This document shows positions 9,664-46,054 of a DNA stretch of 64,000 nt, one piece after another. Each line of letters begins with the position of its first letter. Positions within the stretch are counted from its first letter, which is position 1. Below the pieces are notes generated by a model. The model did not search any database. It was not told the DNA's origin and saw only the letters and a list, made by a program, of their open reading frames with translations. The DNA is from Polytrichum commune. Lineage: Eukaryota; Streptophyta; Polytrichopsida; Polytrichales; Polytrichaceae. The stretch lies in NCBI GenBank assembly GCA_950295325.1, contig OX485808.1, forward strand, positions 932,501 to 996,500, given 5' to 3'. Made by a program: the position numbers and the translations under genes.

Positions 9664-10317
9664 CTACATAGCGGGCTGGAACACCTTCTTGATCTTCTGG
9701 ACCTCGTCGGTGGAGATACCGAAGCCCTTGGATAGAACCTCGTCCTTGATAGCGGGGGTTGATCCGAAGAGAGCAGATGGAATGAGCTGGACACCAGGGT
9801 TCTGGCCGTTAAGGACCGACACGGATGCAGCGTGTCCACCTCCAACGTTGAGCTGGAAGTGCACAAGACCTCTGGGGAAGAGCCACACGTCTCCCTTCTT
9901 CAAGGTTGCGGAGAACAACATGCCTGCGGTGTCAACGAAGCCGACGAGGATCTCACCCTTGATAACGTAGATAACCTCCGAGGCTCGGGCGTGGGTGTGA
10001 GGAGGCACGAGACCGCCCTTGGCATAGTCGAACCTGGCAAGAGAAAGTCCCTGAGTGTTGAGAGCAGGATAATTGACGCCAGCGAAGCCAGGGGTGATTC
10101 CGATACCGAGGGGGCCGATGGCGGCGGGGTTTCTCAAACCGCTGAACAAGAAGTCGGAGGAGACCACGGTGGCAGCGCTCTTGCAAGGCAGGCCGTTGAG
10201 CAGGACGGTGCTCTTCAAGTCGGCGACGCAGTAGTCGTTGATAGGATCAGCGTCTGTGGCAACTCCTACTGACACGAACATGGCCACGACCAAGATAGCT
10301 AAGAGGAACTTCGCCAT
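9664..10317 (-). CDS. Germin-like protein (secreted cupin), copy 1
   Basis: Intact single-exon cupin of 217 aa, a normal length for germin-like proteins, which are apoplastic and usually form Mn-binding hexamers with superoxide dismutase or, more rarely, oxalate oxidase activity. The start at MAKFLLAIL was preferred over an upstream in-frame Met because it opens directly on a signal peptide (residues 1-20). Visible are the conserved disulfide pair Cys30/Cys45, cupin motif 1 with metal ligands His107, His109 and Glu114 (PPHTHARASE), and motif 2 with His153 (FPRGLVHFQLN). All four ligands are present. A TATA element lies about 100 bp upstream. It is divergent to the paralogue at 11,853, with about 1.5 kb between the starts. 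Antisense frames over it are shadows. Which enzymatic activity it has cannot be read from sequence. Confidence 0.93.
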   Translation of the reverse strand: MAKFLLAILVVAMFVSVGVATDADPINDYCVADLKSTVLLNGLPCKSAATVVSSDFLFSGLRNPAAIGPLGIGITPGFAGVNYPALNTQGLSLARFDYAKGGLVPPHTHARASEVIYVIKGEILVGFVDTAGMLFSATLKKGDVWLFPRGLVHFQLNVGGGHAASVSVLNGQNPGVQLIPSALFGSTPAIKDEVLSKGFGISTDEVQKIKKVFQPAM

Positions 10318-10416
10318 TGTAGCAAGCTGGCTTTCGAACAGCACTTGCACAGAGCAAGCAATGTGTCGAAGATGAGGTACTGATCAGCAGGCTCTCTGAA
10401 AGTTTCGACGGAGATG

Positions 10417-10424: not shown

Positions 10425-11852
10425 CTGTGTCGACATCTGCGGGAGAGGACGATCCGCCGAGTCCACCTTTACAGTCCACGATCGGGTCCCACATATCCTG
10501 CAATTACAAATAGTAATATTCACCTGCAATCACCTCTGCTGATGGTTTCACATCAACTACTCTGGATGCGGTTGAGAACGTCGGCATACTTACCTTTCAA
10601 GACCACAGGGTAAATAGCAAGCGGCAACGGCGGTCGATTCTTCGTGGAAGCCGATTCACCTCCAAGCCCATAGCCACCATATCTTCTACATATTGGCATG
10701 GACGTACCAGGTGAGGCCAATCAACTAATGGTCTCTCAGAAGAATTGTGGAGTTTGGAATGTTGAACGGAGTCCGCAGAATCATACTTTCATGCTCAATA
10801 CAATTAAAATTTCGTTGCGGTGCTTAATTCGCATGAGTCACTCTCATGTCGACATTGCCATTAAGAATTTACTGGAGAACTTGAAGTTACTGGGTGGATC
10901 TAGTGCTTTCTCCGCAAAAACCGCGCGAGTTGAGGAATGGAACATTCTTTATCACTGCGGAGAGACAGAAGTTTCTTTCTGCAAACTTGTCTTCAGTTCA
11001 CACATTCCGGAGCTCACTCCTAGTTTCCCGTCGTTTTTAAATCGTCCTTCGAAGGTCATAAAATCGAAGGGTCAAACCATGATGATGATCCAAAACGTTA
11101 GGCCCCAAGCGTACCCGAGTGAACTCAAAATGCTGCTCTAAAGGTAAATACGTTCATTTTCTAGAATGTATGGTACTTAGTCTAATATTACAGTCATTGG
11201 AGGTTCGACTGAATTTAGTTTGATGACCAATGAATAACCTTATCATCCTCACATGAACTTCCTGCTGCAATGTAAACGGTTTTGGTAGTTATCGTGAAGT
11301 TACGCTAGCCTGATTTGCAGTTGATGGAAATAAGTGACACACGGTAAAGTCGAGCCACAAACAGTTACAGAGAAAACTCCTCTTCAACTGTCCGATCGTT
11401 GAATCGGACGTCTTAAAATAGAATTCAATTCCTCCATTGGTAAAAATAATATTCTCCTGGATAGAGCGTTAATTTATGAGTCAGCAGTGGCAAATTCATC
11501 ATTGATCTAAGGACCAGATGATTACAGATGCTAATCTGCCCTAACTAGTAGATTCGAAGTGGTTTTTATCTTCTCTCATGTGGAGGCTGCCAGGCTGCCT
11601 CCAACGTGCAGACATTTCCACCAGAGAAATAAAAGGAGAGGAAGCTCCCCAGCCAGCGTACTAACTCGAAGGACGACGTCACCTGCTAATAAATGCATGC
11701 CGACATATACCCTCAGCCGCCAGCATCGTCGATTGGTGTCGCTGCAGCGAAATTGATAGTCAAGTTTTGGTACCTGCGTGCGGAAGTTTTAGCGACCAAG
11801 GAACAACACCGGCGAGTTTCTTTAGTAAGTTTTGTGCAAATATTCTGTAGAG
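10425..11852. promoter_or_regulatory. Shared upstream region of the divergent germin-like pair
   Basis: About 1.4 kb between the divergent genes, with no transposon recognised. It must hold both promoters. AATAAAAGG near 11,627 is a possible TATA-like element for the plus-strand gene. A 147-codon frame at 10,698-11,141 shows no domain or signal and is treated as chance. Confidence 0.5.
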
Positions 11853-12515
11853 ATGGCGAGAGTTTTGATCGTAGCCTTCGCGGTTATTGTGCTCTTTGCC
11901 ACAGCTGCGTTCGGCAGCGATCCGGATACCATCAACGACTACTGCGTAGCTGATCTCAAAAGCTCAGTTATGTTCAATGGCTACCCGTGCAAGAGTGCGG
12001 ACATGGTGGTGACCTCCGACTTCTTGTTCACGGGGTTCCGGGGCATGGGAGCAGACACAAACAACTCTCTCGGCATCGGCCTTACTCCCGCATTTGCCTC
12101 AGTGAATTACCCGGGACTGAACGCACAAGGACTGGGGCTGGTTCGATTCGACTACTCAAGGGGCGGCCTCGTTCCTCCACACACGCATCCTAGAGCGTCC
12201 GAGGTTATTTATGTCACTCATGGCATGGTTTTTGTCGGCTTCGTGGACTCAGGAGGGAAGTTTTGGTCCGCTACCTTGACGGCTGGCGACGTGTTTTTGT
12301 TTCCCAGAGGTTTGGTGCACTTCCAGCTCAATGTTGGCAACGGGAAGGCCATGTCGATCTCCACCGTAAACGGCCAGAACCCCGGTGTCCAGTTGATTGC
12401 GTCCGCTCTCTTTGGTTCCACTCCTGCCATTAGGGACGATGTCCTAGCCAAGGGCTTTGGCATCAACAAGACAGATGTCCAGATGATCAAGAAGTCCTTC
12501 CAGCGCGCCATGTAA
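11853..12515 (+). CDS. Germin-like protein (secreted cupin), copy 2
   Basis: Intact single-exon germin-like protein of 220 aa, secreted to the cell wall. The start was placed at MARVLIVAF because a hydrophobic signal peptide (about residues 1-21) begins there; an in-frame Met seven codons upstream is less suitable. It has the conserved Cys31/Cys46 pair, and metal ligands His110, His112 and Glu117 in motif 1 (PPHTHPRASE) and His156 in motif 2 (FPRGLVHFQLN). Possible N-glycosylation sites are at NNS (residue 70) and NKT near the C-terminus. It is close in sequence to the minus-strand gene at 9,664-10,317 but clearly diverged (RGMGADTNNS versus RNPAAIGP), so the pair is an old inverted duplication. 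The activity (SOD-like or other) is unknown. Confidence 0.94.
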   Translation: MARVLIVAFAVIVLFATAAFGSDPDTINDYCVADLKSSVMFNGYPCKSADMVVTSDFLFTGFRGMGADTNNSLGIGLTPAFASVNYPGLNAQGLGLVRFDYSRGGLVPPHTHPRASEVIYVTHGMVFVGFVDSGGKFWSATLTAGDVFLFPRGLVHFQLNVGNGKAMSISTVNGQNPGVQLIASALFGSTPAIRDDVLAKGFGINKTDVQMIKKSFQRAM

Positions 12516-26503: not shown

Positions 26504-27816
26504 TGTGAGGCCAAACCACCCACCCTTAAGCGTCCTAGTCCGGGTGAGGGAATGGATATCACATTCATGTTTCCACAACTCCATTTGACCAAACTCGTGA
26601 GAACCCATGACATTTCCCATCAATCAGTGCACACCAATCCATTCCACGATAATATTACAAGCGTTGACAAACGCTCTTCTCTATTATCACAATCATAACC
26701 TCGTGTTCTCCTATCTTGCTAATGAACTAAGTATCTAAAGTAATATTAAGTAACAACTTAATTAACTAACTCTCACCGAGTCTAATGTAGCACCACGGGA
26801 TCCCCCCTTTATATCACTACGGTTCTCCCTTAGTCATCTACCCAAATCACTCAAAGCCTAGCATTAAAGTAAGCCAGCAGCCTCGGAACAATAAGCCCAG
26901 CAGACTTCCAACAGTAAGCTAGTAACCTTGAATCAGTAAGCCCAGCTTCGAAACATTAAGCCCGCAACCTCCCAACAGTAAACCAGCAACCTCCCAACAG
27001 TAAGCCCAACGGACTTCCAATAGTAAGCCAGTAGCCTTGAATCAATAAGACCAGCCTCGAAACAGTAAGCCAGTAGCCTCCCAACAGTAAGCCAACAGCT
27101 TCGAAACATTAAGCCCGTAGCCTCCCAACAGTAAGCCCAGCCTCGAAATATTAAGCCCACAGCCTCCCAATAGTAAGCCCAACCTCGAAACAATAAGCCA
27201 ACAACTTCAAAACATTAAGCCAGTAGCCTCCCAACAGTAAGCCAGCAGCTTCGAAACATTAAGCCCGCTAATCCTCTACCTAATTCCACTAATTACCCAA
27301 GCCCCCTACCTAATCTTCATACCTAATTCCACTAATTTCCCTAATACCCCCTTACTAATTACACACTTTTTCTCTAGCTCTAAGAGCTCAAAATCCTAGA
27401 GAGGAGGGGGAGAGAGAGAGAGAGAGGAAGGAGAGGAGGAAGAGAGAATGAAGAGAGAAGAGGAGGAGGAGGGGAGGGCACCCAAGACCACAAACCCCTT
27501 AACCTTCTCCTACTTAGTAGGACCTTATCCTATCCACTAAGCCCTCACCCCCTAAACCAACAAGAGCATGTTCTAATTCAACCATTTAAATCCAAGGCCC
27601 TTCCTCTTGCTTCATCAAACACTACTCAATCAACCAAAACACTCCCTAATGTCGCTAAGCTTCTAATTAACCACACAAATAGGCTTAAGGTCTAAACATA
27701 AATCCACACCGAGCCTCACTCTTTTTATACTTTTAATTGTTTCAATAACACCCGAATTGCAATCCTAAGTAGATCCTAAGCATAAAACAAATATGAGCAC
27801 TCATTTTGGGCTCATA
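26504..27816 (+). mobile_element. Solo LTR, family 1, copy A (1,313 bp)
   Basis: Starts TGTGAGGCCA and ends TGGGCTCATA (near TG...CA inverted ends), flanked by the perfect 5-bp duplication AAATG (26499-26503; 27817-27821). This fits one LTR left by recombination. Its middle (26,870-27,275) is a minisatellite of about 25-bp units such as AGTAAGCCAGTAGCCTCCCA. The 3' part matches the LTR at 30,684 (TTCACTCTTTTTAT-like block, CACTTTGGGCTCA-like end). It splits the gypsy pol. Confidence 0.83.
27380..27480. repeat. Purine-rich GA/GGA tract within the solo LTR
   Basis: An imperfect run of GAGAG and GGAGGA units around 27,400-27,475. Confidence 0.6.
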
Positions 27817-30683: not shown

Positions 30684-31796
30684 TGTGAGCCCAGAATCAC
30701 CCCCGCCTTTAATTGCGTATGAGTCCAGGCGGGGGATCCTCTGTCACACTCCTCTCCCGTATTGCGAAAATGTATCAACCCCCGTGAATGAGGCAATGAG
30801 ACACAACCCTGTCTCTTTATTAAACTCTCATAAACCCAAGTATTCATAAATACTTGTACCACAACATACATCAAGTAGGATCCTAATTAATTCCACATTC
30901 TCTAACCCCCAAGCCTAATTCTATGACTAACTACCTACTAACCCAACACTGGTCTACATGATAAACTCCTCTGTCCGCCAACAGTCCATGCCACTTCCCC
31001 TCCAGAGCTTATAACTGGCTGGGCTTCGGCCAACAACCTCACATTCTCCGAAATCCTTTGAGCTGCCGAGCTTTGGCCAACAACCTCACATTCTCTGAAT
31101 CGCCTTTGAGGTGCCTGGGCTTTGGCCAACAACCTCACATTCTCTAAATCCTTTTAAGTTGCCTGGGCTTCAGCCAGCAACCTCACATTCTCTAAATCCT
31201 TTTAAGTTGCCTGGGCTTCGGCCAACAACCTCACATTCTCTGAATCGCCTTTGAGCTGCCTGGGTTTCGGCCAGAAACCTCACATTCTCTGAATCCTTTT
31301 AAGTTGCCTGGGCTTTGGCCAGCAACCTCACATTCTCTGAAATCCTTTGAGCTCGCTCCTTGAGAACAACCAACCTCCCCCGAAGGGACCCCTCCTCCTT
31401 CTCCACTGTTCAGGCAACGGGGAATCCTACTTCGGCAGCATTTTTTCTCATTTCCCCCGCTTCCCTTGGTCTTCCACTGTATCCTTATCGTGTCTCTCCC
31501 CGAGAGGAGTTTTCTTCTCCTCATTCACCGTTCCCCCTGGCTTATCCATAAGCCCTGACCCCCTTTAAATGGACAGCAAAGGTCTTAATTCGAACATTAA
31601 AAACCTGCGTTTGACTCCTTGCCATAGGACTACCTAACCCTCCCCTAACCAATTAAATCAACACTAACTCAACTCAAGCCCCAAATCTAACACTTCACTC
31701 TTTTTATGTTTTCTTCACAATAAATAAAAGTCACGATCTAAGTCCTAATGATTTCTAAGGTTAACACACATGTGGGCACACGACTTTGGGCTCACA
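30684..31796 (+). mobile_element. Solo LTR, family 1, copy B (1,113 bp)
   Basis: Begins TGTGAGCCCA and ends TGGGCTCACA, a perfect 10-bp inverted terminal pair. It is flanked by the 5-bp duplication CATTG (30679-30683; 31797-31801). The interior minisatellite (31,005-31,350) repeats a ~50-bp unit containing CAACCTCACATTCTCTGAAT and CCTGGGCTTCGGCCA. It sits inside the 5' LTR of the LTR-GAG element. It is related to the copy at 26,504, but with a different repeat array. Confidence 0.87.
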
Positions 31797-31866: not shown

Positions 31867-32625
31867 AATGTTATGGGTCCACGCATGCAAGTGAAGTGCA
31901 AAGACATTTGATTGCTTTGAGGTTGCAGAGTGGATCTTGAGGGGTTGGTGCTTTGGAATTTCGGAGCGTTGGAGATGTCTAAGGACACATTTGGTTGTTT
32001 TTTGCTTTTGCTTGAATGTATGTTTGATGCATGAGCATGTAACTTGATTGTCTTAAGTGTTGAGAGGTTTGTTTGAAAGGTTTGGAGGTGTTTAGACTTC
32101 AACAACAATTGACATTAGTGTTTTGAGTGTTTAAGGGCTTATTTGAGAGCGTTGAAGGTGTTTAGATTCCAAGAGCACATGACTTGAGAGGCTTGAATAT
32201 TGAGAAGGTTATTTTAAAGGTTTGAAGGTGTTTAGACTTCAAAACATACGACTAGAATAATTTGAATGGTTTAAGATTTATTTGTGAGGCTTGAGTATTG
32301 TAAGGTTGTTTGAAACCATTCAAGGTGTTTTGAATTTTTGAGTGCTTGAGGTGTACAAGATTTGACTTGAGGTATTTGAGAGTGTAAAACACATTTGACT
32401 TGAGTGATTGGAGAGTACAAAGGGCACATTTAAGAGAAAATGCATTCATTTGAATGAAATAAGATCTAACGAGTGATTAGAGAGTGCAATGGCCACATTT
32501 GAAAGAAAATGCATTCATTTGAGTGAAACGAATTATAACTTGAATGATTAAAACGTTGTAACACACATTTGAAAGCAAGTGGACTAATTCTAGGTGTGAG
32601 AGATTTGACTTGAGTGATTAGAATG
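31867..32625 (+). repeat. Leader of the LTR-GAG element, part 1 (degenerate TTTGAGTG array)
   Basis: Non-coding array of loosely repeated phrases such as GACTTGAGTGATTAGAGAG and TTTGAAAGAAAATGCATTCA, with a period of roughly 65-90 bp. It continues after the LINE at 45,335. Confidence 0.6.
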
Positions 32626-33241
32626 TCTTTAGGCATTAAGTTGGTTTGCGAGTGTGGGAGGTGGGGGATGACTTGAGAGGTGAAGCCGGAACACTCTCGG
32701 CGAAGCCCTGACAGATCTGAGAAGGTGTTGGAGGTAAGGGGGGAAGTGCCAAGGTAGAAGTGGCTATCCTGCTGCTCCCGTAACTCTTCCCCCCCAGCCA
32801 CCCACCTCTTCAGATTTTGAAAGGGCACTGAGAGATGTGGCCACCGTAACAAGCCCCCCATAAAAGATCGTGATAATCAGTGCATCCACACTCTCCTCAT
32901 AGGCCCCCCCGACACCAGAAACGGTAGAACGAAGCAGCCGCTGCTGCACCTCGGAGATCTACTGCCGAGCCACCACCACATGACATCGCCACTACCACGG
33001 AACACATCAACATATCTGACCCTGCAATACGTAGCTGACTGGATTCTCAAACTGCTGCCACGCCGCCACTGGAGACATCTGCTTCAACGAGTAACAACTG
33101 CTGCTACTCACCACGGGAAGTTAGCCACCGAAGTAACCGCCCCGACGAAGCTGCCGCCCACACCTGAAGTCCCCTTGCAACCAAATCCACCACCGATACA
33201 GCTGCTGCTCGCCGGATACACGTAGCCGCCGAACTCGCCGG

Positions 33242-33500
33242 GACCTCGTAACCGCTACTACCTCAAAACACATTCTCCGAAGTCCCCTACAACTCGTAGC
33301 CGCTGCTGCCGTTGTCAATAAATCGGTGCTGCCATCGAAACACAGACTCCGAAGACCCCCACAACTCGTAGCCGCTGCTGCCGCCGTCGCCAACGTCCCT
33401 TCAAAACTACTGCCACTCCCGCAACCCACAGCCGCTGCTACCACCCAAACACAGGTTTAGAAGCGCCCCCGCAACTCGCAGCCGCTGCTGCCACCGGAGA
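33242..33500 (+). repeat. GC-rich minisatellite in the LINE 5' region
   Basis: Five imperfect units of 50-72 bp, each starting near AACTCGTAGCCGCTGCTGCC (about 33,248, 33,290, 33,362, 33,421 and 33,471). Tandem arrays in LINE 5' UTRs often serve as promoter monomers. That role here is inference. Confidence 0.65.
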
Positions 33501-34333
33501 TTGCAGATCCAAGCTCAGATCTGTACTCAGATCCAGGCTCATCGAACATTACATCTAAAATCCAGCACATTAGACTAGACTTACAAGACCCAGAGATTGC
33601 ACCGAGTGAACTCAGTCAAAGGATCCTGCGGGTGTCCACATCTAGCAGAAACATAGTCAAAATTTCTGTTGCAAGACATAGAAATCCTCAACAAAGGATA
33701 GTATGACTACAGATAGGAAAACCTTGAGAGATTACAACCCAGAGGAAGATTGGGACAAACTGCAGCCGGAGAGACTTTAGACCTGCGCTATCTACAAGCA
33801 CTGCTGAACGCCGAAGGAACTGCTAAAACCAAGGAGGAATTGCTTAAGCGAAAGGAGAGCCGTCACCAAAACCGAGAGCTTGTCGAAGCAGCGGGGAGCC
33901 CCAGAAGATGCCTCAACACTGTGCTCCAGAAGAGTGCTGGAAATTCTTGACAAACACACGACAGAGGGAGGAGTTCCGATTCGGAGATTTGCTGCTGGAA
34001 ATCAGAAGGCTGCAAACACGGCATTGCAGCAAGAAACAAACGGGAGTTGCGTGCTGTGCAGTTGGCAGACACCGGAGGATAATTGGATCGACACTATATT
34101 AGCCACAGAACTACTGCGAAGTTGTGCAGCACCGGAGCAGAAGTTGTAAAGACGTGAAGCTGCGGGACGTGAGAGGCCGCGAAGCTGTGGAACTGTACAG
34201 CTGATTACTCCTCAACCAACAAGGGATTCCAAGGTAAGATTTCTAAACCATCCATTGCACATAGACTTAGATGCACACACATAAGTAATAAGTAGTCACA
34301 TAGCAATTTTTTTTTGTCAAGATAGGAGGTAGT

Positions 34334-34684
34334 ATGAAGGTTGCATATGCAACCATGTTTGCTTTTGTATTATGGCTCATAGTAGCCTCCTCATATTGGA
34401 AATCCTCTCACCGTGTCCCCTCTCACACTATTTGGATAGGATATTCAAGTTGTCGTTATGAAAACATACATGAACACAAACCAACACCAAAAGTAGTACC
34501 ACCATGTTTTTATGCCTCTCCATATTGGAACCTTATGTATCTCATCAAAACATCCACACCCCTAGATAACTTAACACATCAATACACTAATCTAGAAAAT
34601 GAAAAACCAAAATTGTTGCATGCTTGGATTATTAATAATTATTGTTCCAAAACCAATAAACGAAATAAGAGTAATTATATGTAA
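34334..34684 (+). other. Unassigned 116-codon frame in the LINE 5' region
   Basis: Starts MKVAYATMFAFVLWLIVASS, a hydrophobic signal-like start. It is followed by a Cys/His/Tyr-rich stretch with no recognised family. It lies between the 5' minisatellite and ORF1 and could be an upstream frame or chance. Confidence 0.2.
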
Positions 34685-34839
34685 GACACTCAAAACACTT
34701 CTTCCCTAAAAACAATATCCAATTTGGCCCACAATTTAATTTGTGGAATGGATTTGGCATAGGGATGATAAGAAGTATGGACCTAGTTAACCCTCCACAA
34801 AAACTAAGCCACTCATTTGAACATTGTACTTGTCACAGA

Positions 34840-36476
34840 ATGTCTACATCCACCAACGTTGCTGCCACCACTAGGAAACTATTTGAGCAAAATGTTGATA
34901 TGATAGATGCATTAGCAAACGGTAAAAAAAGACAAGTCGGTGCTATGATTGTGTCTAGCCAAAAGAAGGCAAAGGGCAAAGGAGTTGTATCCCCACGCCC
35001 CCCCCCCCTTTTGGTTAGGATATCATGCGATGAATGCAATTGCATGTGAAAATGGTGAAACATTAGAACCAACAGTCTCAGTTAGTGAACTTGTCAAATT
35101 TGGAATGGAACATGATGAGGCATTAGAACATCTAGAAGCGGTCCCCTCTTTCCCATACATCCCCCAAGAAGTTTGGCCTTCCAAAAGGATGGATGGTAAA
35201 GAAGGTGGGCACTTCAATCTCACTCAAGTCCCTTTCGATGTAGAAGTGGATGAAGGAGGGTTTTCTCTTGACTACCAAATAGCCATAACCTTTGAGCTTT
35301 GTGAACGAAACTTGTCAAGGGATGAAATACATGCAAAAACGGAAGCAAGGTTAAAAGCTATGAACATTGAACTAGGAGAAATCCTAGGAGAACCTATAGC
35401 TATCCTTTGCTTCCACGGCTCTAAGAGGTGGAATGGTATAATCAAACTCCACCTTAAGAACCCAATGATAAATGCCAATGATCTCCTTCATGGCAATAGG
35501 TCATTTATCCTCAAGTTGAATAATATAACCTATTGTAGAGGAAAGACATTCAAATCATTTGATTCCATAGCCATCGCAAGTCTGCTCTCGGTCAAAATCT
35601 CTAGCCCTACACTCAAAGATAGAAAATGGTTCCAATTGCATGAAGAGATTGTCAAAGATGGCTTCAAACGAGGGTATGAATTTGAAGTCACCAATGTGCA
35701 AAAGAATGATAGTGCTGAATTTGCATGGATAAAAATCCCATCTCCGGACCAAGCAAAGAAATTAAAAACCTTCAAAATTTCATTTTTCAATGAAATCATG
35801 GAAGTACACTTTGCTAGTATGGAGAAACTCTCCGAGTATGATAAGGTAAAAAAGAATGCAGTAGTATTGATTGCAAAAAACTTAAGCAAAACCAAAACCA
35901 CCGTCACCTTAGAGGAGGGGATAGAGAAACTCTTTGGAGAAAAAAAATGTGGCGGGCATTTTCTTCCGATTAGAAAAGGGGAAGCATGTGGGATCATGTA
36001 ACGTACAATGTTTTAATGCGGCAGTTTATAAGAAGTATGTAAAACAAAACCACCCAATTCTTGGTAAATACGTAGAATTTTCACCTCATTCCAGAAGTTT
36101 GGATGGAATTGATGCCCCCTCCGCAATAAAACTTGCTAGACTAGGCTTTGCTGATGTCAACACCACACTAGCCAACACGATTCAAGCCTTGGAGAATGCC
36201 CCATCAAAATGATACACGAAGGCATATTTGAGCAAAATGGTAGAAGAGGCGGTAAGCAAAGGCGCAGTGGAAATTCGCAAAGAAATGAGCCTCCTAAAAA
36301 ATGAGATTATTGAAGAAGCAAAAGTATATGCAAACAAAGTTCAAGCTGAGTCAAACCAAAATTCAAAAATACAAATTGTACTCCTCCAAAAATAAATGCG
36401 CATCACCCTGGAAACCCTCCAAGCCGACCACCCCGACACCCCCGAAATTGAAAACCACATGGATGTGTCAAACTAG
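34840..36476 (+). pseudogene. LINE ORF1 protein (RRM-like, coiled-coil tail), frameshifted
   Basis: A once continuous frame of roughly 545 codons starting MSTSTNVAATTRKLF. It is now broken by a slip at the poly-C tract near 35,000-35,010 and another at the poly-A tract near 35,940, and by a TGA at 36,210 that replaces an expected Trp. The N-terminal part has a basic KKAKGKG patch. The middle (GEPIAILCFHGSKRWNGIIK ... GNRSFILKL) and later segment (KNAVVLIAKNLSKT ... NVAGIFFRLEKGKHVGSCNV) look like two RRM-type beta-alpha folds, as in RNA-binding ORF1 proteins. The tail (KMVEEAVSKGAVEIRKEM) is helical and coiled-coil-like. The role, RNP formation on LINE RNA, is inferred from position and fold resemblance; I do not recognise the exact family. 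Confidence 0.6.
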
Positions 36477-38122
36477 TTTTGACAAATGTAGCGATGGAAA
36501 CACATATTATAACAAAAAATATATTTATATACACAACTTAATAAACAACAAAACAAATATTACAAAATACTATTAAATACTATACACAAAATATATAAAT
36601 ATCACACTAACAAAAATAAAATAAAAATAGTATCTATCGATACTCCAATAAAGCAACAAATAAACCAAATACAAAGTAAAACGAATGAATACTCCCACCC
36701 ACCTACATACATAGCAACAAGAAAACATAATGCAATAAAAATATATTTATATACAAAAAACAATAAAACCCAATACAAACATCATATAATATTAATAAAT
36801 ACTACACAAAAAATACACAAAAATACACAAAAAAATACATATTAAATACAAACAAAACAAACATAGTATTTATCAATACTATCTCAAAAAAACAAACAAA
36901 TAACTCACAAATTAAAATCAAAACTAAGGCACATATTGAACACATTAAAAATAACATACAAATAAACAACCAACCTCTAATACACAACAAAAAGAAACAC
37001 ACACAAACAAACACACACATAAAAACAAAAAAGCAATATACAACAAAAACCAAAATACTAAATATCAAACACCCCACAAAGCACCAAACAAAACACCAAA
37101 CGGCCTTGGCCTACGGGCCTCGCCACAAAATAAAACAAATAAAACACTCAAACTACCACAACTTCTATCACACATTTTTCAAAAATACAAAATTTATGCC
37201 AAAACAAACCAAACACACACACTACTTCCCCAAATATACACAAAAACCAATACATGCCCTATCCAACCTATTTACCACAAGTGTAGCGATGGAAATACAT
37301 ATTATAACAAAAATACATTTATATACACAAACCAAAAAATAACAAAGAAAAAATTACAGAGTATTATTAAATACTATACAAAAAATACATAAATACCGTA
37401 TCAACAAAAATAAAATAAAAATAGTATTTATTAATACTCCAACAAATAAGCAAACAAACAATATACAAGTTAGTACTCAATCAATATTTTTCTCCAAACA
37501 CATCAAAAGCAATCAACAAACAAAGAAAATACAACTAAACAAACAAACCAAACTCATCTTAGCCTACAAGCAAATTTACACTAAGACAAAAAGACAAAAC
37601 ATAGTCAAAACATCATACCACATATACAAATTGATAAATAAAATAGCAAGCAAAACCAAATACCAAATATCAAACCATTCTCCTAACTTGTGGGAGAAAG
37701 AACATTACACATCAAACCACGCACAACACCAACTTACACACCTCAACCTTAACCTACACCTTGCACAATCCCCTATAATACGGCACACAAAGCACCAAAT
37801 GGGCTCGGCCTACCGGCCTCGCCACAAAACCAAACAAATAAGATACTCACGTTACTATATCTTTCAACAAGCCTTTAACACAATCACACGGCCCATACAC
37901 AAACAAACCAAATTCACATACTACCTCCCTCACCACAAAACTAAACACAAAAGATACCCACACTACCACTTTTTTCACCAACCACATAATACAATAACAA
38001 GGCCTATATACAAACAACCTAAATTCACTCATTATCCCCTCAAACTCCCTCAAAAAATAATAATACATGCCTTACCTAATCTATTTACCACAAGTAAATA
38101 CACACTAATAAAATACTACAAA
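36477..38122 (+). repeat. G-poor spacer between ORF1 and ORF2 with two interleaved tandem repeat families
   Basis: Family one has copies at about 36,486-36,655, 36,725-36,890 and 37,283-37,445 (GTAGCGATGG, ATATATTTATATACA, AATAGTATTTAT blocks). Family two starts with GGCCTTGGCCTACGGGCCTC at 37,101 and GGCTCGGCCTACCGGCCTC at 37,802, and ends with CTATTTACCACAAGT at about 37,268 and 38,079. Within it a ~110-bp unit is duplicated at 37,823-37,933 and 37,934-38,041. The second part is open in the ORF2 frame. Confidence 0.65.
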
Positions 38123-38197
38123 ATGAACAAAAGAAAACCAAAAATCAAACAATACCAAGGATATCACTTCATTCATCAATTAGCACTATTACAATGT

Positions 38198-38224
38198 GGA
38201 GACATTGAACCTCACCCTGGACCG
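38198..38224 (+). other. 2A-like motif GDIEPHPGP at the ORF2 N-terminus
   Basis: The frame reads LALLQCGDIEPHPGP, close to the 2A ribosome-skipping consensus D(V/I)ExNPGP, which several APE-type LINEs carry at the start of ORF2. The Asn of NPGP is His here, so activity is uncertain. The Met at 38,123 (MNKRKPK) would put it about 34 residues into the protein. Confidence 0.6.
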
Positions 38225-41200
38225 ATGCCAAATATATTGTATAGACATCCAACAACACACAAAAAAATAGCCAACACCTACTTCATCCCTAACACAATAA
38301 AATTATACCCAGAATACCAACACCTTGCTAATTCATTTGCCCCTATACTAAAACATGAACACCCTCTACATCCACAAGCAATCCTAACATTCTCACATTT
38401 ATATCAATACACGCAAACACAAAACCACTCACCCCTATCCCACATACTATATGCCATTATTATAATCATAAACCCCTCAATAAACACTTGCAATAATATA
38501 TTAGCTCAACCCAACACCTACCACTTCAACATAGAATGGACTAATACACTAATCATCAAACTGGCTAACCTTACCAACCCCCAGAAAGACATATCCATAC
38601 ACAACACCCATACACTAAATTCATAGAAAACCACCAAGACATAATAGTACCTCCAAACTCAATACATCAAGAATTATACACTTTCATACATAGCCATGAA
38701 TCACCTCCAACCCTTACCACACTCCAAAGAAAACTTCCCTTCTTACCAATCAAATTATTAAACGAATATTCTCACCCACCCCCACTTCTAAATATACCCA
38801 CTCAAACAACTAGAATAAACACCAACACTAATCATGAAACAAACATAATAACTTGGAATGCATCATCACTGAATACAACCTTGCCTAACTTACAAAGCCT
38901 CGTTACCTACACACAAACAAATACAGCAACCATTATCATCCAGGAAACTAAATTCACAGCAACCATATCCACGAAATATATTAAAAATTTATTCCCACAA
39001 TACAAACTCGTATTTAACAACACACATGCACTCACTAGATGCATTCAACAACGAATGCCTTATACACCAGGAAGGGGCGGATTGCTTACTCTTATAAACA
39101 ACAAATATGCCTTCCCTGGTAATATCACCAAAATTCCCACACCGGCTAGTATTTCGCCATATCTTCAAATAATATGAATAAACAACCAACCATTAAAACC
39201 ATGGTTAATTATTCACATGTATATGCCTACACACATAGAAGACCTACACCTCATTCCCAACATAAAAACTACAATCACTAATCAAATTACTGTACACCCC
39301 GATCATATTTACACCTTATGCGGAGACTTTAACCGCGACATTGCACTTATTGGTAGACAAAATAACAGTTCTAATTCACCGCCACAAGAAGAAGACATAC
39401 ACTAGAAAACCTTTACTGCATCCCTAAATCTTGAATACATCCCAACAAACACCACATTCTCAAGACAAGGCGGTAACAACTATACATCTACCAGCTTGAT
39501 AGATGAATTCTACATCAACTCACCATATAATAACACATACTCTTCTACAACAAACACCTACATGGACCTAACTCAGACCACTATCCAATCACCCTCCACA
39601 TACCACATAACACATCAATAGCAAGACCCAAACCCTCCAACAACATTACACAAAATAAAATCCTAAACCCGATACCACCTGAAAACCTTGAAATTTTAAT
39701 ATAAAATTCTTTGAAGAGAACTCCACACAAATCCACGACTTAAACACCCTCCTTGAAAATCATGATCATCTCACGAACACCCAATGGTAATACGCGTGTG
39801 ACACACTAGACAACATAATAAGAAAAATTTCACAAAACATAGAAGAAACATGTAGTACAGCTCCAATACCACCAACCACCAACATGTACAAATCCCCAAC
39901 CTACCTACAACAAACACCTCACTGAACGTATGGATAGAGGAAATAGCAATCATTGCAAAAACCGCCAAGATTCAAGCTATAAACATTACCACAAAATATA
40001 CTAAAGAATGTATACTAAAAGCAATATCAAAATATAGAACACTATATGAAAAAAGTCCTAAGAAAATAAACAAGAAAGTCTTCAGAAACTCTGAAACCTC
40101 ACCCCTAGATTCTATCATAGATAGACAAAACAACATCCTAACTAGTCCTGAAGATATAGCAAAAGAAATATACACACAACAATCCATTAGTAATCGTCCC
40201 ACAGTCCCTACCTGTGCCCATCAAACAAACCATTTACAACACTGTACGTGTAGCGTACGACAATACCCGTGGCACGACCTTGACGGCCTCACCATAGACC
40301 GACGCGGAGAACCTCAAATTCCACTCCACACATACTTCGATTCAGAAACATATGACCTATGTCTAAAAAACCTTGGTAACAACAAAGCCCCTGGCCCAGA
40401 TAAAATTCTCAATTCAATATTAAAAAACATACCACCACGCTTTCACAGACTACTATTCCTATTCTTCAAACACTGCTATAAACAAAAACAAATCCTTGCA
40501 TCATGGAAAATGAGCCTAACGGTCCTACTCTATAAGAAAGGTAACCCATCACAACTCACAAATCATAGACCTATTGCTTTAGCTAATACCATATATAAAT
40601 TTTACACAAGTACTCTGACATCCATCCTCTCGGCCTACGGAGAAATATACCAAATACTACATGATAGCCAAGAAGAATTCAGAGCAGAAAGAGGAACTTC
40701 CAGACAACTCCAAATACTAATTGCTGCACTGGAAGATGCAAGATTCACAAAACATGACATATACATTCTATACATAGACTTTAAAAATGTTTTTGGCTCT
40801 ATAGACCACGCTAGACTTCTAGCAATAATGAAAGACCTTGGATACCCAGATGATGCCATAAACCTAATCAGAAATATATATTCGCAATCTACGACCACAT
40901 TTATAGGAGAACACTTTGGCAAAACACAACCTATCCCCATTCAAAGGGGAACAATACAAGGAGACACCCTAAGCCCATATATATTCATCATATTCTTAGA
41001 ACCTCTTCTAAGATGATTACAATAGGAAAATAATGGCTACACATTCGGAACATCCAAAGTAAAAATTTCCTCAGCAGCGTACGCCGATGACCTAGCAACA
41101 ATAGCAAACAAATTGAAATCGCTACAAATACAACTCAACAAACTTGACATATTTTGTGAATGAGCGGGCATGGATCTTGGAATCCCCAAGTGTGCAATTA

Positions 41201-42998
41201 CGGGATGCCCAAACAAATCCAAAATGAGCCCCTTAGCTTTTAAAAACCAAATTCAAGCGACTAATATTAACTACGGAAACGAACCTATACCAGTTTTGAG
41301 TCAAAATGAACCATACACATATTTAGGAATAAACCTTGCCCCCTCACTAAAATGGAAAACACAAATACACACCACTACCACCAAAGTTATAAAACAATGC
41401 AAAGATCTTGCAGCCTGTCCAGCTACTATGAAACAAAAAATCAATATGGCGGACACACTTATACGCGCCGGAATTGCATACAGTTTCTATGCGGTACCAT
41501 ACTCCCTACCTGCCATCAAAAAACTTGACAAAAAAATTATAGCCCTCCACAAAACAATATGTGGACTACCAAAATCCACGTCAAACATAACTACACAACT
41601 TCCTCATAACTTATTCGGCATAGAGGCCTTCTCATTCAAAAATGCCTACTTACGATGTATAGGAGAACAACTACAACATGCCCTCAATGACACAGGCAGA
41701 CTAGGAAAAATCTATAAAGGATTGCTTCAATTTATACTAGCAACATTTGGTGGCGCCGAAGAGATACCTCGTATCAAATATCACCACTGTGTCCGCTCAC
41801 CTATAACTATAACACTATTCCTACTCAACAAAGAAGCAGGAGTTCACCTAAAGAGCACAATAAACAATTTCATGTTTAACACCTCTCCACTTGAAAATGA
41901 TTGGATGAAAGAAGCGCGAAACTTACACAGCCTGAATCATAAAACATCGCTTAAATTATTACAAAAATTACTACTACACAACATAATTGAACTAGGGCAA
42001 ATCACTCTACCCAATGGCCTCAACATGATGTGCCCGAACGATTTTAAAAACTATTATTCCAACCCTACCAAACTCATCAAAAATGCACTAAACATTGCTC
42101 AACAACTATTATGTCACCCCCAATGCCCCCCTCAATGTCAACAACCATGCCCGCACCACTACCTACCCAGAACCCTAAAAGAAAACTACATAATAATAAA
42201 TCATAACATTCTCCCTAGACAACCTGAGCCGCCACTACACCCCCCCCAAACCCACCCCACCCACATCACCCACCCCCACCAAGAGATGTGCTTAAAAACC
42301 CTAGGCAATTCCCTATTCACACCATCCTTGACCATAAAAAACGGCAATACACTAACTCCAATGGAATAATGAAAATAACACATCATATCTATGCCAATGG
42401 ATAATAAACAACCATAACACCTATAATAAATGGCTAACCCAAAGAGACATGTTCCCTTGGTACGAAGCTAACACATGTGCACACAACTCTGGACTACTAA
42501 CACAATACTATACTGAAAAACAACATAAACACTACTCAAACTTAATAAACGCTCACTTTGCCACAGAACAACAACGAGATACGAGATATGTCACCCCCGC
42601 AACAAATATCCCAATGGCACATATCTCTATCCATGAGTGTAACCCCGAAAATGACATAGAAACCTCCACAAATACTATCCAAATGCATTTTGATGTTGCC
42701 AACATGTATGAGGACAAGGGACGGCACCTCATTGCCATTCCCAAAACCAGACTACACTGGCTCTGGAAACAATACCAACTCGCACAAAATACCCCACATG
42801 GGTTAGAACCACCTACACAACCATTCGAAACTGAAATAGTATGGCTATACCAAAGGTACAAGTACCGGATCCCAAAAAATGACCCACTAAAACTAGCCCA
42901 ATACACATTACCAACTCCAATATTAAATTTTCTCATCACATCATTCAACATTAGCCATCCATACTTCTCATCCCCAGTCACATGCCCTACACAACTTA

Positions 42999-43330
42999 AT
43001 AGATTTTACTCTCCATTCGCAAGAGATAAAATATTTGGATCATTAGGGAAAGCCTTCGACCACAAATGGAATGGAATAGGCTTTGCCCACCCCAACAACG
43101 CTACAGACCTACTACAGGCTACACATTGGGCCCGTCTTGCTGCCAAAGATGACCCAAGCAACATCACAATAATCATCTCACCTGACATAAATTGGTACCA
43201 AAACTTCAACCCATACTCGGGCCCATTCCCAGATACACATATTATCGCTCACTTTGCGGCAGATACAATCACATACGAAGAACCTACTATACCACCTGAA
43301 CTTAATATACCTAGGAAAAAACTCTCCACA
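42999..43330 (+). other. Unidentified conserved-looking domain in the RT-RNase H linker
   Basis: Segment with FYSPFARDKIFGSLGKAF, HKWNGIGFAHPNN, HWARLAA and NITIIISPDINWYQ, ending with TIIAHFA-like hydrophobic strands. The pattern recalls small adenine-methyltransferase-like domains (FGS...F..W.G...NP...), but the catalytic NPP[FYW] is not intact. I do not assign a function. Confidence 0.25.
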
Positions 43331-45065
43331 CTACAAATACTCTGCATACACCACCAAAATAACCACATAGGCACCTATGAACAGCTAAATCAACTCACCC
43401 ATATTGCAAATAACCTCTCAATAACACAACTATACACACAAATTGCCATGCACACCCCCCCCCCCCCCGAATACTCCTGTCAACCCTAACAAAAAGTGGT
43501 CCAAATTAACTTACCCCGATACCCCCATACTCAATGTATCACCTATACCTCAACTACCGGACTACCAAACTAACTTACCATTGAAATACCATCCACAATT
43601 TAGTTATTACACCGATGGCTCATTCAAAGAACCCAAACTAATCTCTACCGGAGTATGGAGGAAAGAAATGGCAAGATATGGTATCTATAGCCCTAGAGGA
43701 CTAAGTATAGCCGGAAGGCTATATGGACACCAGAATATCCTCATAGCAGAAATGATGGCTATACATAAAACATTGCGAATTATCAACGACCAATATCCAA
43801 ATGAGCCCGCATATATATTCACCGATAGCCTCAATGTCCTATACCTACTAAACACACAAATCAAACACCCCACACTACACAATAGTCACCCAGACCAAGT
43901 CACACTTGCCTCCATGGTAAAATTACTCCAAAAACGCTCTCAACCAACTACATTACACAAAGTTAGAGCACATGCCAACATAGACGGCAACGAACAAGCA
44001 GACAAATTAGCAAAAGAAGGACTGGACCTTACCCATAGAAATGCCATACACCCACACGAACACGCTCATGCCACACCTTACTACTATCAAAAAGACAAAT
44101 GGCCTTCCATGATAGACACGCTAGACAAGGGCCCAGTCAGATTCCTAGAAAAACAAATCAAAAAATATGACAGAACAAACAACTTAGAAAACATGGCCGC
44201 ACAAGCCCCTAATATTTGGAAATGGATAGGCAATGAACACATTGACAAGGAAATTTCTAACGAATTCTGGAATAACCTTACTATTACAGACAAACAGAAG
44301 TCATGTCTTATCAAATTCCGTACAGGAACTTACATGGGCCAAGCCAGAAAACAACTTTTCTTTGGTAGACAAAGATTCCCCACCATCACCTGTCCCATCT
44401 GTAACTCATACGAACCTGACACATGGCTACATGTACTACTCACATGTAGGCAACAACATATTCACTCTCTACACATAAAAAGACATAACAAAGCAATATG
44501 GGAAATAAGGAAATTACTAATCTCATCCGAAAAATCCCGATGCTACACCCTTATGAACGCTGGCACCTTTAATGACAACCCCCAAGAAAACACTGTCCCT
44601 AGCTGGTTATTACCCTGCACATGTGGAACCCAAAGATGTCACTGCAACTCCCGTTTTAAACCCGACATTCTTTGCGTTAAAGGACTACCATATCAAAATA
44701 CACCCCCCACAAATGTAGACCAAACAATTACCATACAATTCATTGAATTCACATACTGTAATGATAAATTTTCACCAGCAACCCTAGAAGCCAAAACTAA
44801 CAAATACCAACCGCTGATAGAAAGCATTGCTGCCCTAGGTTGGAAAACAAACCCGCTTATTGTTATTACAGCAGGCGCCAGAGCCGCAACACACATCCCA
44901 TCAATGAAACTATTGGAAGACAAATTTAAAATACCTATGTCATCCATCCGAAATACCTTCAAAAACATTAATACCATTGCGATACAATACGCCATGTCCA
45001 TCTTGCTCCACAAAAGAAGACTTGAAAATCACCAACCTCTACCTCAAATACAAGACCCCCCCTAA

Positions 45066-45322
45066 ACTCCCTAGATCAAACTAAACAAAACAAACCCTAT
45101 ATTAAACCATCCCTTGGGTATAGTCTCCCTTTGTGTCATAAACCAATATTGGTTACTGGCTCTTATTTGTTACTGGTTACTTGTGACTATAGTGTCTACT
45201 CTCGAAAGGGGGAAGTAGTTCCTCACTTCTACTCCTATGTCCCGTGGACATAGGTTTAGGGGTGGAACGAACAGACACTTCGTTCACGTCGGTCCCCCTG
45301 GGGATCGAAGTTTCTTCTCTTC
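45066..45322 (+). other. LINE 3' UTR with consecutive hairpins and no poly(A)
   Basis: Two perfect stems are visible: CCTATGTCC (45,234-45,242) with GGACATAGG (45,246-45,254), and GAACGAA (45,265-45,271) with TTCGTTC (45,279-45,285). A third stem pairs GGTCC with GGATC (about 45,291-45,306). The element then ends in a pyrimidine-rich TTTCTTC, directly before the target duplication. Structured non-polyadenylated 3' ends serve as RT recognition sites in R2-like elements; that role here is inference. Confidence 0.7.
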
Positions 45323-45334
45323 TCTTTAGGCATT

Positions 45335-46054
45335 TTGGAGAAGAAGTGAACTCATTTGAAATGAAAAAATATATAATTTGAGTGATTTGATAGTTCTAGG
45401 GCAACTTTGAGAACAAAAACTCTTATTTGTGATGTATTAGATATGACTTCAATGATTTGAGAGTCCAAAAGTCCATTTGACACCACGAGAACATTTTTTA
45501 GTTGAAATGGATTTTATTTGAGTGGATTGGTGTCAAAGCACAAAGTTTGAAGGCAAAAATATCCATTGGAGATTGAAAGGGTGTTATTCAAATGCATTGA
45601 GTTGCAAGAATACATTTAGAGAATGAGGGGGTGTATTTAAATATGAATTAAATGTTTGAGGGCTTCTTTGAGGGCATTGAACATATTTTGAGTTTGAAAT
45701 GATTAAACTTGGGTCATTTGAGTGTTGAAACGCTTACTTGATAATGATAAATAGGCTCAACATTTGAGGTCAAGAAGAGCATACTTGAGTGTTTTGGTTG
45801 ATTTGAGTGTTGGAAAACACATTTGAAAAATAAGGCTAATTATTTGAGGTCAGGAGGAGCATAATTGAGTGTTTCAAGTGCCATTTGAAAGAGAGGTTTG
45901 TCATTTGAACTCAAGTAAAATTGACTTCATTGGTTTGAGGATAAAATTATTTCATTTAAGGTATTAAGGCTCAAAAGCACATTAGTGGTGCAGTTTAGGT
46001 CCTAAGGGCCTGATTTGAAAGTTTTGAGCATACAACTTATTATTTGAATGTAAG
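45335..46054 (+). repeat. Leader of the LTR-GAG element, part 2
   Basis: Continues the TTTGAGTG-type degenerate array interrupted by the LINE, with phrases such as TTGAGTGATTTGA, ACATTTGA and ATTTGAGGTCA(A/G)GA(A/G)GAGCATA. It ends at the gag start codon. No coding potential. Confidence 0.6.

Follow-up and report, generated by a model that had tools for sequence, protein, structure and literature searches.

A probable Dualen-like LINE family with APE and restriction-like endonuclease domains in the genome of Polytrichum commune

Background

The apurinic/apyrimidinic-type endonuclease (APE) and the restriction-like endonuclease (RLE) are usually regarded as alternatives in long interspersed nuclear elements (LINEs), and the change from RLE to APE was a main step in LINE history. 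Dualen has been described to encode both (PMC4640811). The presence of APE and RLE in one element defines Dualen/RandI, from which RNase H has also been reported (PMC4640811, PMC3636483), and its range as described comprises Chlamydomonas and other core-Reinhardtinia green algae (PMC8226300). Here we analysed a stretch of 64,000 nucleotides of Polytrichum commune (contig OX485808.1, positions 932,501 to 996,500; the window), which contains a 12.7-kb LINE that is very probably a degraded member of a large Dualen-like family of land-plant LINEs, some copies of which are still open.

Plant L1 elements carry an APE, two open reading frames (ORFs) and a poly(A) tail, and in known LINE cases the 2A motif lies on the N-terminal side of ORF2. 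RNase H occurs in plant L1 (PMC4640811), and 2A-like sequences have been described in non-LTR retrotransposons (PMC4981915, citing Odon 2013). According to a 2022 review of land-plant transposable elements, the LINEs of plants are L1 and RTE (PMC9033089); from Physcomitrium, LINE-1 and LINE-2 have been described (PMC7466625). The literature matches listed, which included neither Repbase nor the original Dualen paper, contained neither a Dualen element from a land plant nor a LINE carrying a PCIF1 domain or a chromodomain.

Like Dualen/RandI, the element described here combines APE, RLE and RNase H; in contrast to the algal hosts described for that group, its host is a land plant, and 2A, chromodomain-like and PCIF1-like domains were found in it. 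It resembles R2 in that R2 gave the best reverse transcriptase (RT) matches among solved structures, and in its CCHC-RHN motifs and PD-(D/E)XK fold, but R2 has RLE as its only endonuclease and a fixed target, whereas here APE and RNase H are present and the flanks are varied by eye. APE, RNase H and two ORFs are shared with plant L1, which is marked by an RT inside L1 and no RLE; here the RT is distant, an RLE is present and the tails consist of repeat units, not poly(A). With the 2A-bearing APE LINEs the element shares a 2A-type motif on the N-terminal side of ORF2, which here accompanies an RLE and occurs in a land-plant element. The PF12237 domain is shared with the PCIF1/CAPAM methyltransferase, but here its NPPF is replaced and the domain is fused into a LINE polyprotein.

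Results

A degraded window copy and its open relatives

The LINE is bracketed by an exact 12-bp direct repeat, TCTTTAGGCATT, at 32626-32637 and 45323-45334, which was taken as its target-site duplication; the second copy begins directly after the pyrimidine tail. The limits 32638..45322 proposed in an earlier note, made from the letters of the window, are thus correct. The APE motifs that the note had placed before the RT were all located (IQETK at 38938, CGDFN at 39319 and SDHYPI at 39573, with TWNASSL ahead of them at 38851), as were those placed after RNase H (CX2CX9HX4C at 44391-44447, RHN at 44478, KPD at 44655, EFT at 44739, KxxKY at 44790 and GARA at 44868). RNase H, with motifs at 43608-44012, indeed lies between the RT and the second endonuclease. 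Window proteins scored above the Pfam cut-off for RVT_1 (8.1e-18), RNase H (PF00075, 6.4e-12) and PCIF1_WW (PF12237, 1.6e-9). When searched by tblastn with a relative, the window copy was split over several frames with stops, and its APE is considered broken because SDHYPI sits in another frame than the preceding APE motifs.

The host assembly (407.8 Mb in 64 contigs, the window being located on contig C6) was searched for relatives, and the match counts are lower bounds. The RNase H-RLE protein of the window had at least 79 scored matches, with 77-96% identity outside the window. A second lineage, first found beside copy L021, was represented by at least 149 scored matches of a divergent RLE relative, from 5915 first-look candidates. 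Some copies of the two lineages have open frames of >2,000 codons. In particular, copy L031 of the first lineage and copy L062 of the second contain uninterrupted frames of 2625 and 2422 aa, respectively, each with the complete domain set in the order 2A motif, APE, RT, chromodomain-like segment, PCIF1-like domain, RNase H and CCHC-RLE. An alignment of the two proteins shows 42% identity across 2401 columns, from just upstream of the 2A motif to the C-terminus; a short stretch following YADD in L031 is absent from L062. RVT_1 and RNase_H (PF00075) were above the Pfam cut-off in the window, L031 and L062, and PCIF1_WW in the window and L031.

Because APE and RLE in one element are the hallmark of Dualen/RandI, the family was classed as Dualen-like, a grouping by domain content that also takes in RNase H. 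The claim that an R2-type RLE exists besides the APE holds within single frames of L031 and L062, the RLE being recognised by fold search of the window copy, and the earlier proposal of a Dualen-like lineage in a plant stands. That reading was right on the two endonucleases and incomplete in other respects: the 2A motif, a chromodomain-like segment, a PCIF1-like domain and a structured 3' end had been overlooked. The plant setting is borne out by auxin-response-factor domains, which had 10 matches in the host genome (best 1.8e-20) and were found in 0 of 14 control genomes; this family marks land plants, and the host is one. No relatives outside the host were found in scans of viral contigs and of bacterial and archaeal genomes.

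Plant-type L1 with zf-RVT is also abundant in the host genome (150 scored of 322 candidates). The Dualen-like LINE and L1 coexist in one genome.

The features of the window copy are as follows, all on the + strand.

32626..32637, target-site duplication, 5' copy TCTTTAGGCATT, identical to 45323-45334
32638..45322, entire LINE insertion, old and broken, 12.7 kb, with the target-site duplication at both ends
34313..36591, ORF1 region, with a hydrophobic N-terminal start common to the window and L063
36469..38107, 5' portion of the ORF2 frame, consisting of diverged repeats
38198..38224, 2A-type motif, one residue off the DxExNPGP consensus in the window copy
38851..39590, APE endonuclease, broken in the window copy (motifs; Pfam above cut-off in L062)
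40387..41094, RT core, from APGPD to YADD (RVT_1 8.1e-18; R2 as best PDB matches)
42383..42600, chromodomain-like segment (profile against PDB; Pfam Chromo)
42806..43123, PCIF1/CAPAM-like methyltransferase domain, NPPF replaced (HPNN within 43085-43108; PF12237 1.6e-9)
43602..44024, RNase H (PF00075 6.4e-12)
44391..45062, CCHC knuckle and PD-(D/E)XK restriction-like endonuclease (RHN, KPD, EFT, KxxKY)
45186..45312, folded 3' end, a branched domain and a terminal hairpin (RNAalifold, covariation counts)
45313..45322, pyrimidine-repeat tail, its limit toward the duplication ambiguous by a few bases
45323..45334, target-site duplication, 3' copy TCTTTAGGCATT, identical to 32626-32637

The C-terminal endonuclease resembles that of R2

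As a single sequence, the RLE part had no Pfam and no PDB match. A profile of 30 rows (alignment A3, hand-chosen open copies of two lineages about 40% alike) matched only two R2Bm sequences in PDB, at E 2.1 and via CCHC-RHN, and in the alignment the CCHC-RHN of the LINE is in register with that of R2Bm. Across the 30 rows, the E, K and KY residues are invariant and P-D is conserved in at least 90%; exceptions are L006, without P, and P0001 (in A1, outside A3), without D. In an AlphaFold model of the C-terminal part of the window copy (mean predicted local distance difference test, pLDDT, of 53, rising to 59-84 in blocks within residues 211-310), a helix is followed by three strands, then by helices and one more strand, which is the order of the PD-(D/E)XK core (PMC3636483). 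A Foldseek search of this model against 350,542 PDB chains returned R2 proteins as the five best matches (E 3.0e-3 to 2.0e-2, probability 0.98-1.00, query TM-score 0.34-0.37). This supports a fold similarity to PD-(D/E)XK enzymes, whose absence the earlier note had named as counting against its reading.

The reverse transcriptase lies outside plant L1

In PDB searches, the best match of the window RT was R2 (5.1e-17), with LINE-1 ORF2 at 1.7e-10; that of the L031 RT was also R2 (6.6e-30), and L1 was missing from the matches listed, which we take as a filter effect. The L031 RT scored 102 bits with R2Pm versus 57 with the better of two host L1 RTs. In an unrooted tree of seven sequences, whose size does not allow the groups to be ordered, support was 1.000 for the L1 pair, 0.999 for the Dualen-like pair and 0.952 for the vertebrate R2 pair, and all three R2 sequences split from the remainder at 0.799. 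The RT was thus not found within ordinary plant L1, a placement named beforehand as one that would count against a Dualen-like element; the L1 pair stands apart in this small tree.

A PCIF1-like domain without its catalytic motif

PF12237, which is named WW, corresponds to a CAPAM-like methyltransferase domain and not to WW (PMC7641849). It was found at E <= 1 in 23 of 23 members of alignment A4, whose rows are hand-chosen open copies. A genome scan with PF12237 gave 697 candidates, of which all 150 scored places were above the cut-off, and no match in 14 control genomes; at least some of the 150 places lie in long LINE frames, L031 included. The sole PDB match of the window protein was PCIF1 (6irx), at E 0.063. 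Three PCIF1-like matches (C1:40948585, C4:34924404 and C1:51770977) lie within open frames of 2663-2924 aa, exceeding that of L031.

The catalytic motif of such methyltransferases belongs to the class (D/N)PP(F/W/Y), and the matched PDB chain of PCIF1 has NPPF. A motif of this class was present in none of the 43 distinct copies read (15 + 21 + 7; the second set had 23 rows, of which 22 display this position and two, L044 and L062, are the same place and count once, and the last set comprised 7 of 8 loci). NPPF was replaced in every one, differently between lineages, with HPNN, HPHN, HPPN, FPTD and LPKD among the replacements. L074 (C1:40948585) retains the PP of the motif, as HPPN. Because the fold is conserved although the catalytic motif is lost, the sequences suggest a binding role, which we infer for a dead PCIF1-like domain.

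Chromodomain-like segment, 2A motif, APE and ORF1

Between the RT part and the PCIF1-like domain, a segment resembling chromodomains was located. Searching PDB with an 11-row profile (A5) gave eight sequences at E <= 10 (best 0.011); seven belong to chromodomain proteins, each from the CDY/CDYL family. Pfam Chromo matched at E <= 10 in 7 of the 11 members of A5 and 9 of the 14 of A9 (best E 4.9e-4), both alignments consisting of hand-chosen open copies. When tested singly, members were below the Pfam cut-off or had no match (L031:2849-3196, L082). The segment is likely, though not proven, to be a chromodomain, for which its sequence profile gives moderate support.

The 2A motif occupies one aligned place about 200 residues ahead of the APE, as GDIEPNPGP in L031 and GDIELNPGP in L062. 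Both agree with the DxExNPGP consensus, from which the window copy differs at one residue, and we infer putative ribosome skipping at this motif. The APE was above the Pfam cut-off in L062 (PF03372 2.2e-6, PF14529 1.1e-7) and weaker, below the cut-off, in L031 (PF14529 3.3e-4); the window piece 38569-39177, which includes part of the broken APE, had no Pfam match.

Detectable similarity of the window LINE to L031 and L063 begins at about 34313 and extends through the 3' end, and 32638-34312 is without a cross-check from a relative. Window positions 35191-36591 align with an L031 stretch containing its 428-aa ORF1 piece. For the ORF1 pieces of L031 and L062, Pfam gave nothing convincing, with best E values of 1.2 and 0.03, respectively. 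ORF1 apparently opens with a hydrophobic, signal-like stretch (window 34313-34428; L063, reverse strand, 1445-2410).

Purifying selection on four ORF2 segments

The Nei-Gojobori medians of the ratio of nonsynonymous to synonymous substitution rates (dN/dS) among open copies were 0.100 for the PCIF1-like part (99 pairs), 0.090 for RNase H (172), 0.077 for RLE (113) and 0.132 for the thumb (64), values that are rough because the pairs share ancestry and many dS exceed 1. Individual pairs reached 0.5-0.8. Places spanning at least 85% of the segment were used, pairs with dS <= 0.05 were removed, and copies with stops were excluded (PCIF1-like 6/21, RNase H 10/30, RLE 15/31, thumb 0/14). By this measure, the PCIF1-like part is constrained about as strongly as the catalytic parts.

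A folded 3' end and a pyrimidine tail

In both lineages, the 3' end follows one plan. A branched domain that a stem closes is joined by a linker, in most copies containing ATTCA, to a terminal hairpin, after which comes a pyrimidine tail of short units, namely (TTCTC)n, (TTTTC)n or (TATC)n, with varying repeat number. The structures were obtained by RNAalifold, and covariation was counted against 500 shuffles, from alignments A7 (26 rows, from 27 places in 31 loci, with the window replacing L001, L028, equal to L027, omitted and four loci lacking the pattern) and A8 (19 of 30 places kept, those dropped being mostly near-identical). Pairs changed on both sides numbered 6 of 41 and 9 of 33 in the two lineages, which was reached by 1/500 and 0/500 shuffles, respectively, and the covariation score was reached by 0/500 in each lineage. 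When partners were slid, 30-52% could pair, versus 98-99% of the real partners. More weight is given to the slid controls, and to the recurrence of this plan in both lineages, than to the shuffles, because related sequences can beat shuffles without structure. A search of Rfam with six loci (L001, L010, L031, L037, L062 and L063) found nothing at E <= 1. L031 has, in its 3' untranslated part, an internal A-run and extra sequence ahead of the conserved folded end.

Beyond the tail, the flanks of the printed copies appear unrelated by eye, and therefore no fixed insertion target was seen.

Surroundings of the window copy

Diverged repeats with similar units lie on either side of the LINE (window 32012-32622 and 45430-45797), so that it apparently landed in a local repeat field. 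Tandem arrays of 48-bp and ~22-bp units are located at 31019-31353 and 26868-27266. Among the ORFs of at least 150 aa, those that stand out most clearly as host genes are two cupin genes, at 9664-10383 on the - strand and 11829-12515 on the + strand, both of which were read as germin-like.

Discussion

Several results weigh against parts of the interpretation given here. The RLE model is of modest confidence (mean pLDDT 53), its Foldseek search against PDB gave no match at E <= 0.001, and the next 45 listed of 288 matches comprise 20 endonuclease or viral L-protein titles, at E >= 0.35, the rest being mixed. In PDB, the 23-row PCIF1-like profile had PCIF1 only third, at E 0.6, after two prefoldins; L062 alone was below the PF12237 cut-off (26.7 versus 31.1 bits), and the PCIF1-like structure model was poor (pLDDT 43). 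The Chromo scores are weak. At the 3' end, a count of further pair types was reached by 269/500 and 500/500 shuffles, and therefore that measure gives no support. The dN/dS pairs are non-independent and from open copies only, with dS between subfamilies mostly >1. The host L1 RTs are themselves closer to R2 (66-70 bits) than to L031 (52-57), so the RT scores show distance from L1 and not kinship with R2. A target-site duplication was seen in one of three copies tried, that of the window; for L031 and L062, whose 5' ends are unfixed, none was found, the longest shared word being 9 bases in the former and none of at least 9 existing in the latter. Finally, the comparison with algal Dualen is one of described features.

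An ordinary plant L1, in which the APE does all the cutting and the zinc-knuckle tail is merely RLE-like, would agree with the known RNase H of plant L1 (PMC4640811), with the failure of the RLE part alone to match Pfam or PDB and with the modest confidence of its model. We regard this as very improbable, since the L031 RT scores 57 bits with host L1 versus 102 with R2, all five best fold matches of the RLE are R2 with CCHC-RHN in register with R2Bm, its E, K and KY never vary and its P-D is kept in at least 90% of 30 rows from two lineages about 40% alike, and its dN/dS is 0.077. The splitting of the window copy into several frames could likewise point to a stack of unrelated insertions that contributed APE and RLE from different elements, but the uninterrupted frames of L031 and L062, with identical order in two lineages and many copies elsewhere, refute this explanation and leave it practically no probability.

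With regard to the PCIF1-like domain, it might still work as a cap or DNA adenine methyltransferase despite its altered motif, and would then protect or mark the RNA or DNA of the element. This would fit its conservation under purifying selection, the match of stretches near its FGS motif to PCIF1 and the fact that other retrotransposons are known to carry methyltransferases (PMC6338049). Activity nevertheless seems improbable to us, as none of the 43 distinct copies read retains NPPF and its replacement differs between the lineages.

For the Dualen-like element, the following mechanism can be proposed from its sequence, tentatively, as we judge the scheme as a whole somewhat more likely to be wrong than right. 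The RNA of the element would be translated, and a skip at the 2A site would release the polymerase protein, which may grip its own RNA through the folded 3' end. One of the two endonucleases would nick the first strand, and the RT would prime at the nick on the pyrimidine tail, where slippage could produce the variable repeat numbers. RNase H would clear the RNA template, and the other endonuclease would cut the second strand about 12 bases off. The chromodomain-like part may bias the insertion site via chromatin, and the PCIF1-like part may serve as a non-catalytic holder of RNA, perhaps of its cap. A bolder version, in which two unrelated endonucleases serve one strand each, the chromodomain steers by histone marks and a dead cap-methyltransferase fold holds the capped 5' end, thereby coupling both RNA ends to integration, is speculative and in our judgement unlikely.

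With a land-plant family that is abundant and has open frames, it becomes possible to test in plants how APE and RLE share their work. As far as the literature matches listed go, a chromodomain-like and a dead PCIF1-like domain would be LINE cargo of a new kind. They prompt the questions of how chromatin is targeted and how the 5' end of the RNA is recognised, the latter being poorly understood in LINE integration. Repeat surveys of land plants that expect only L1 and RTE may overlook such elements.

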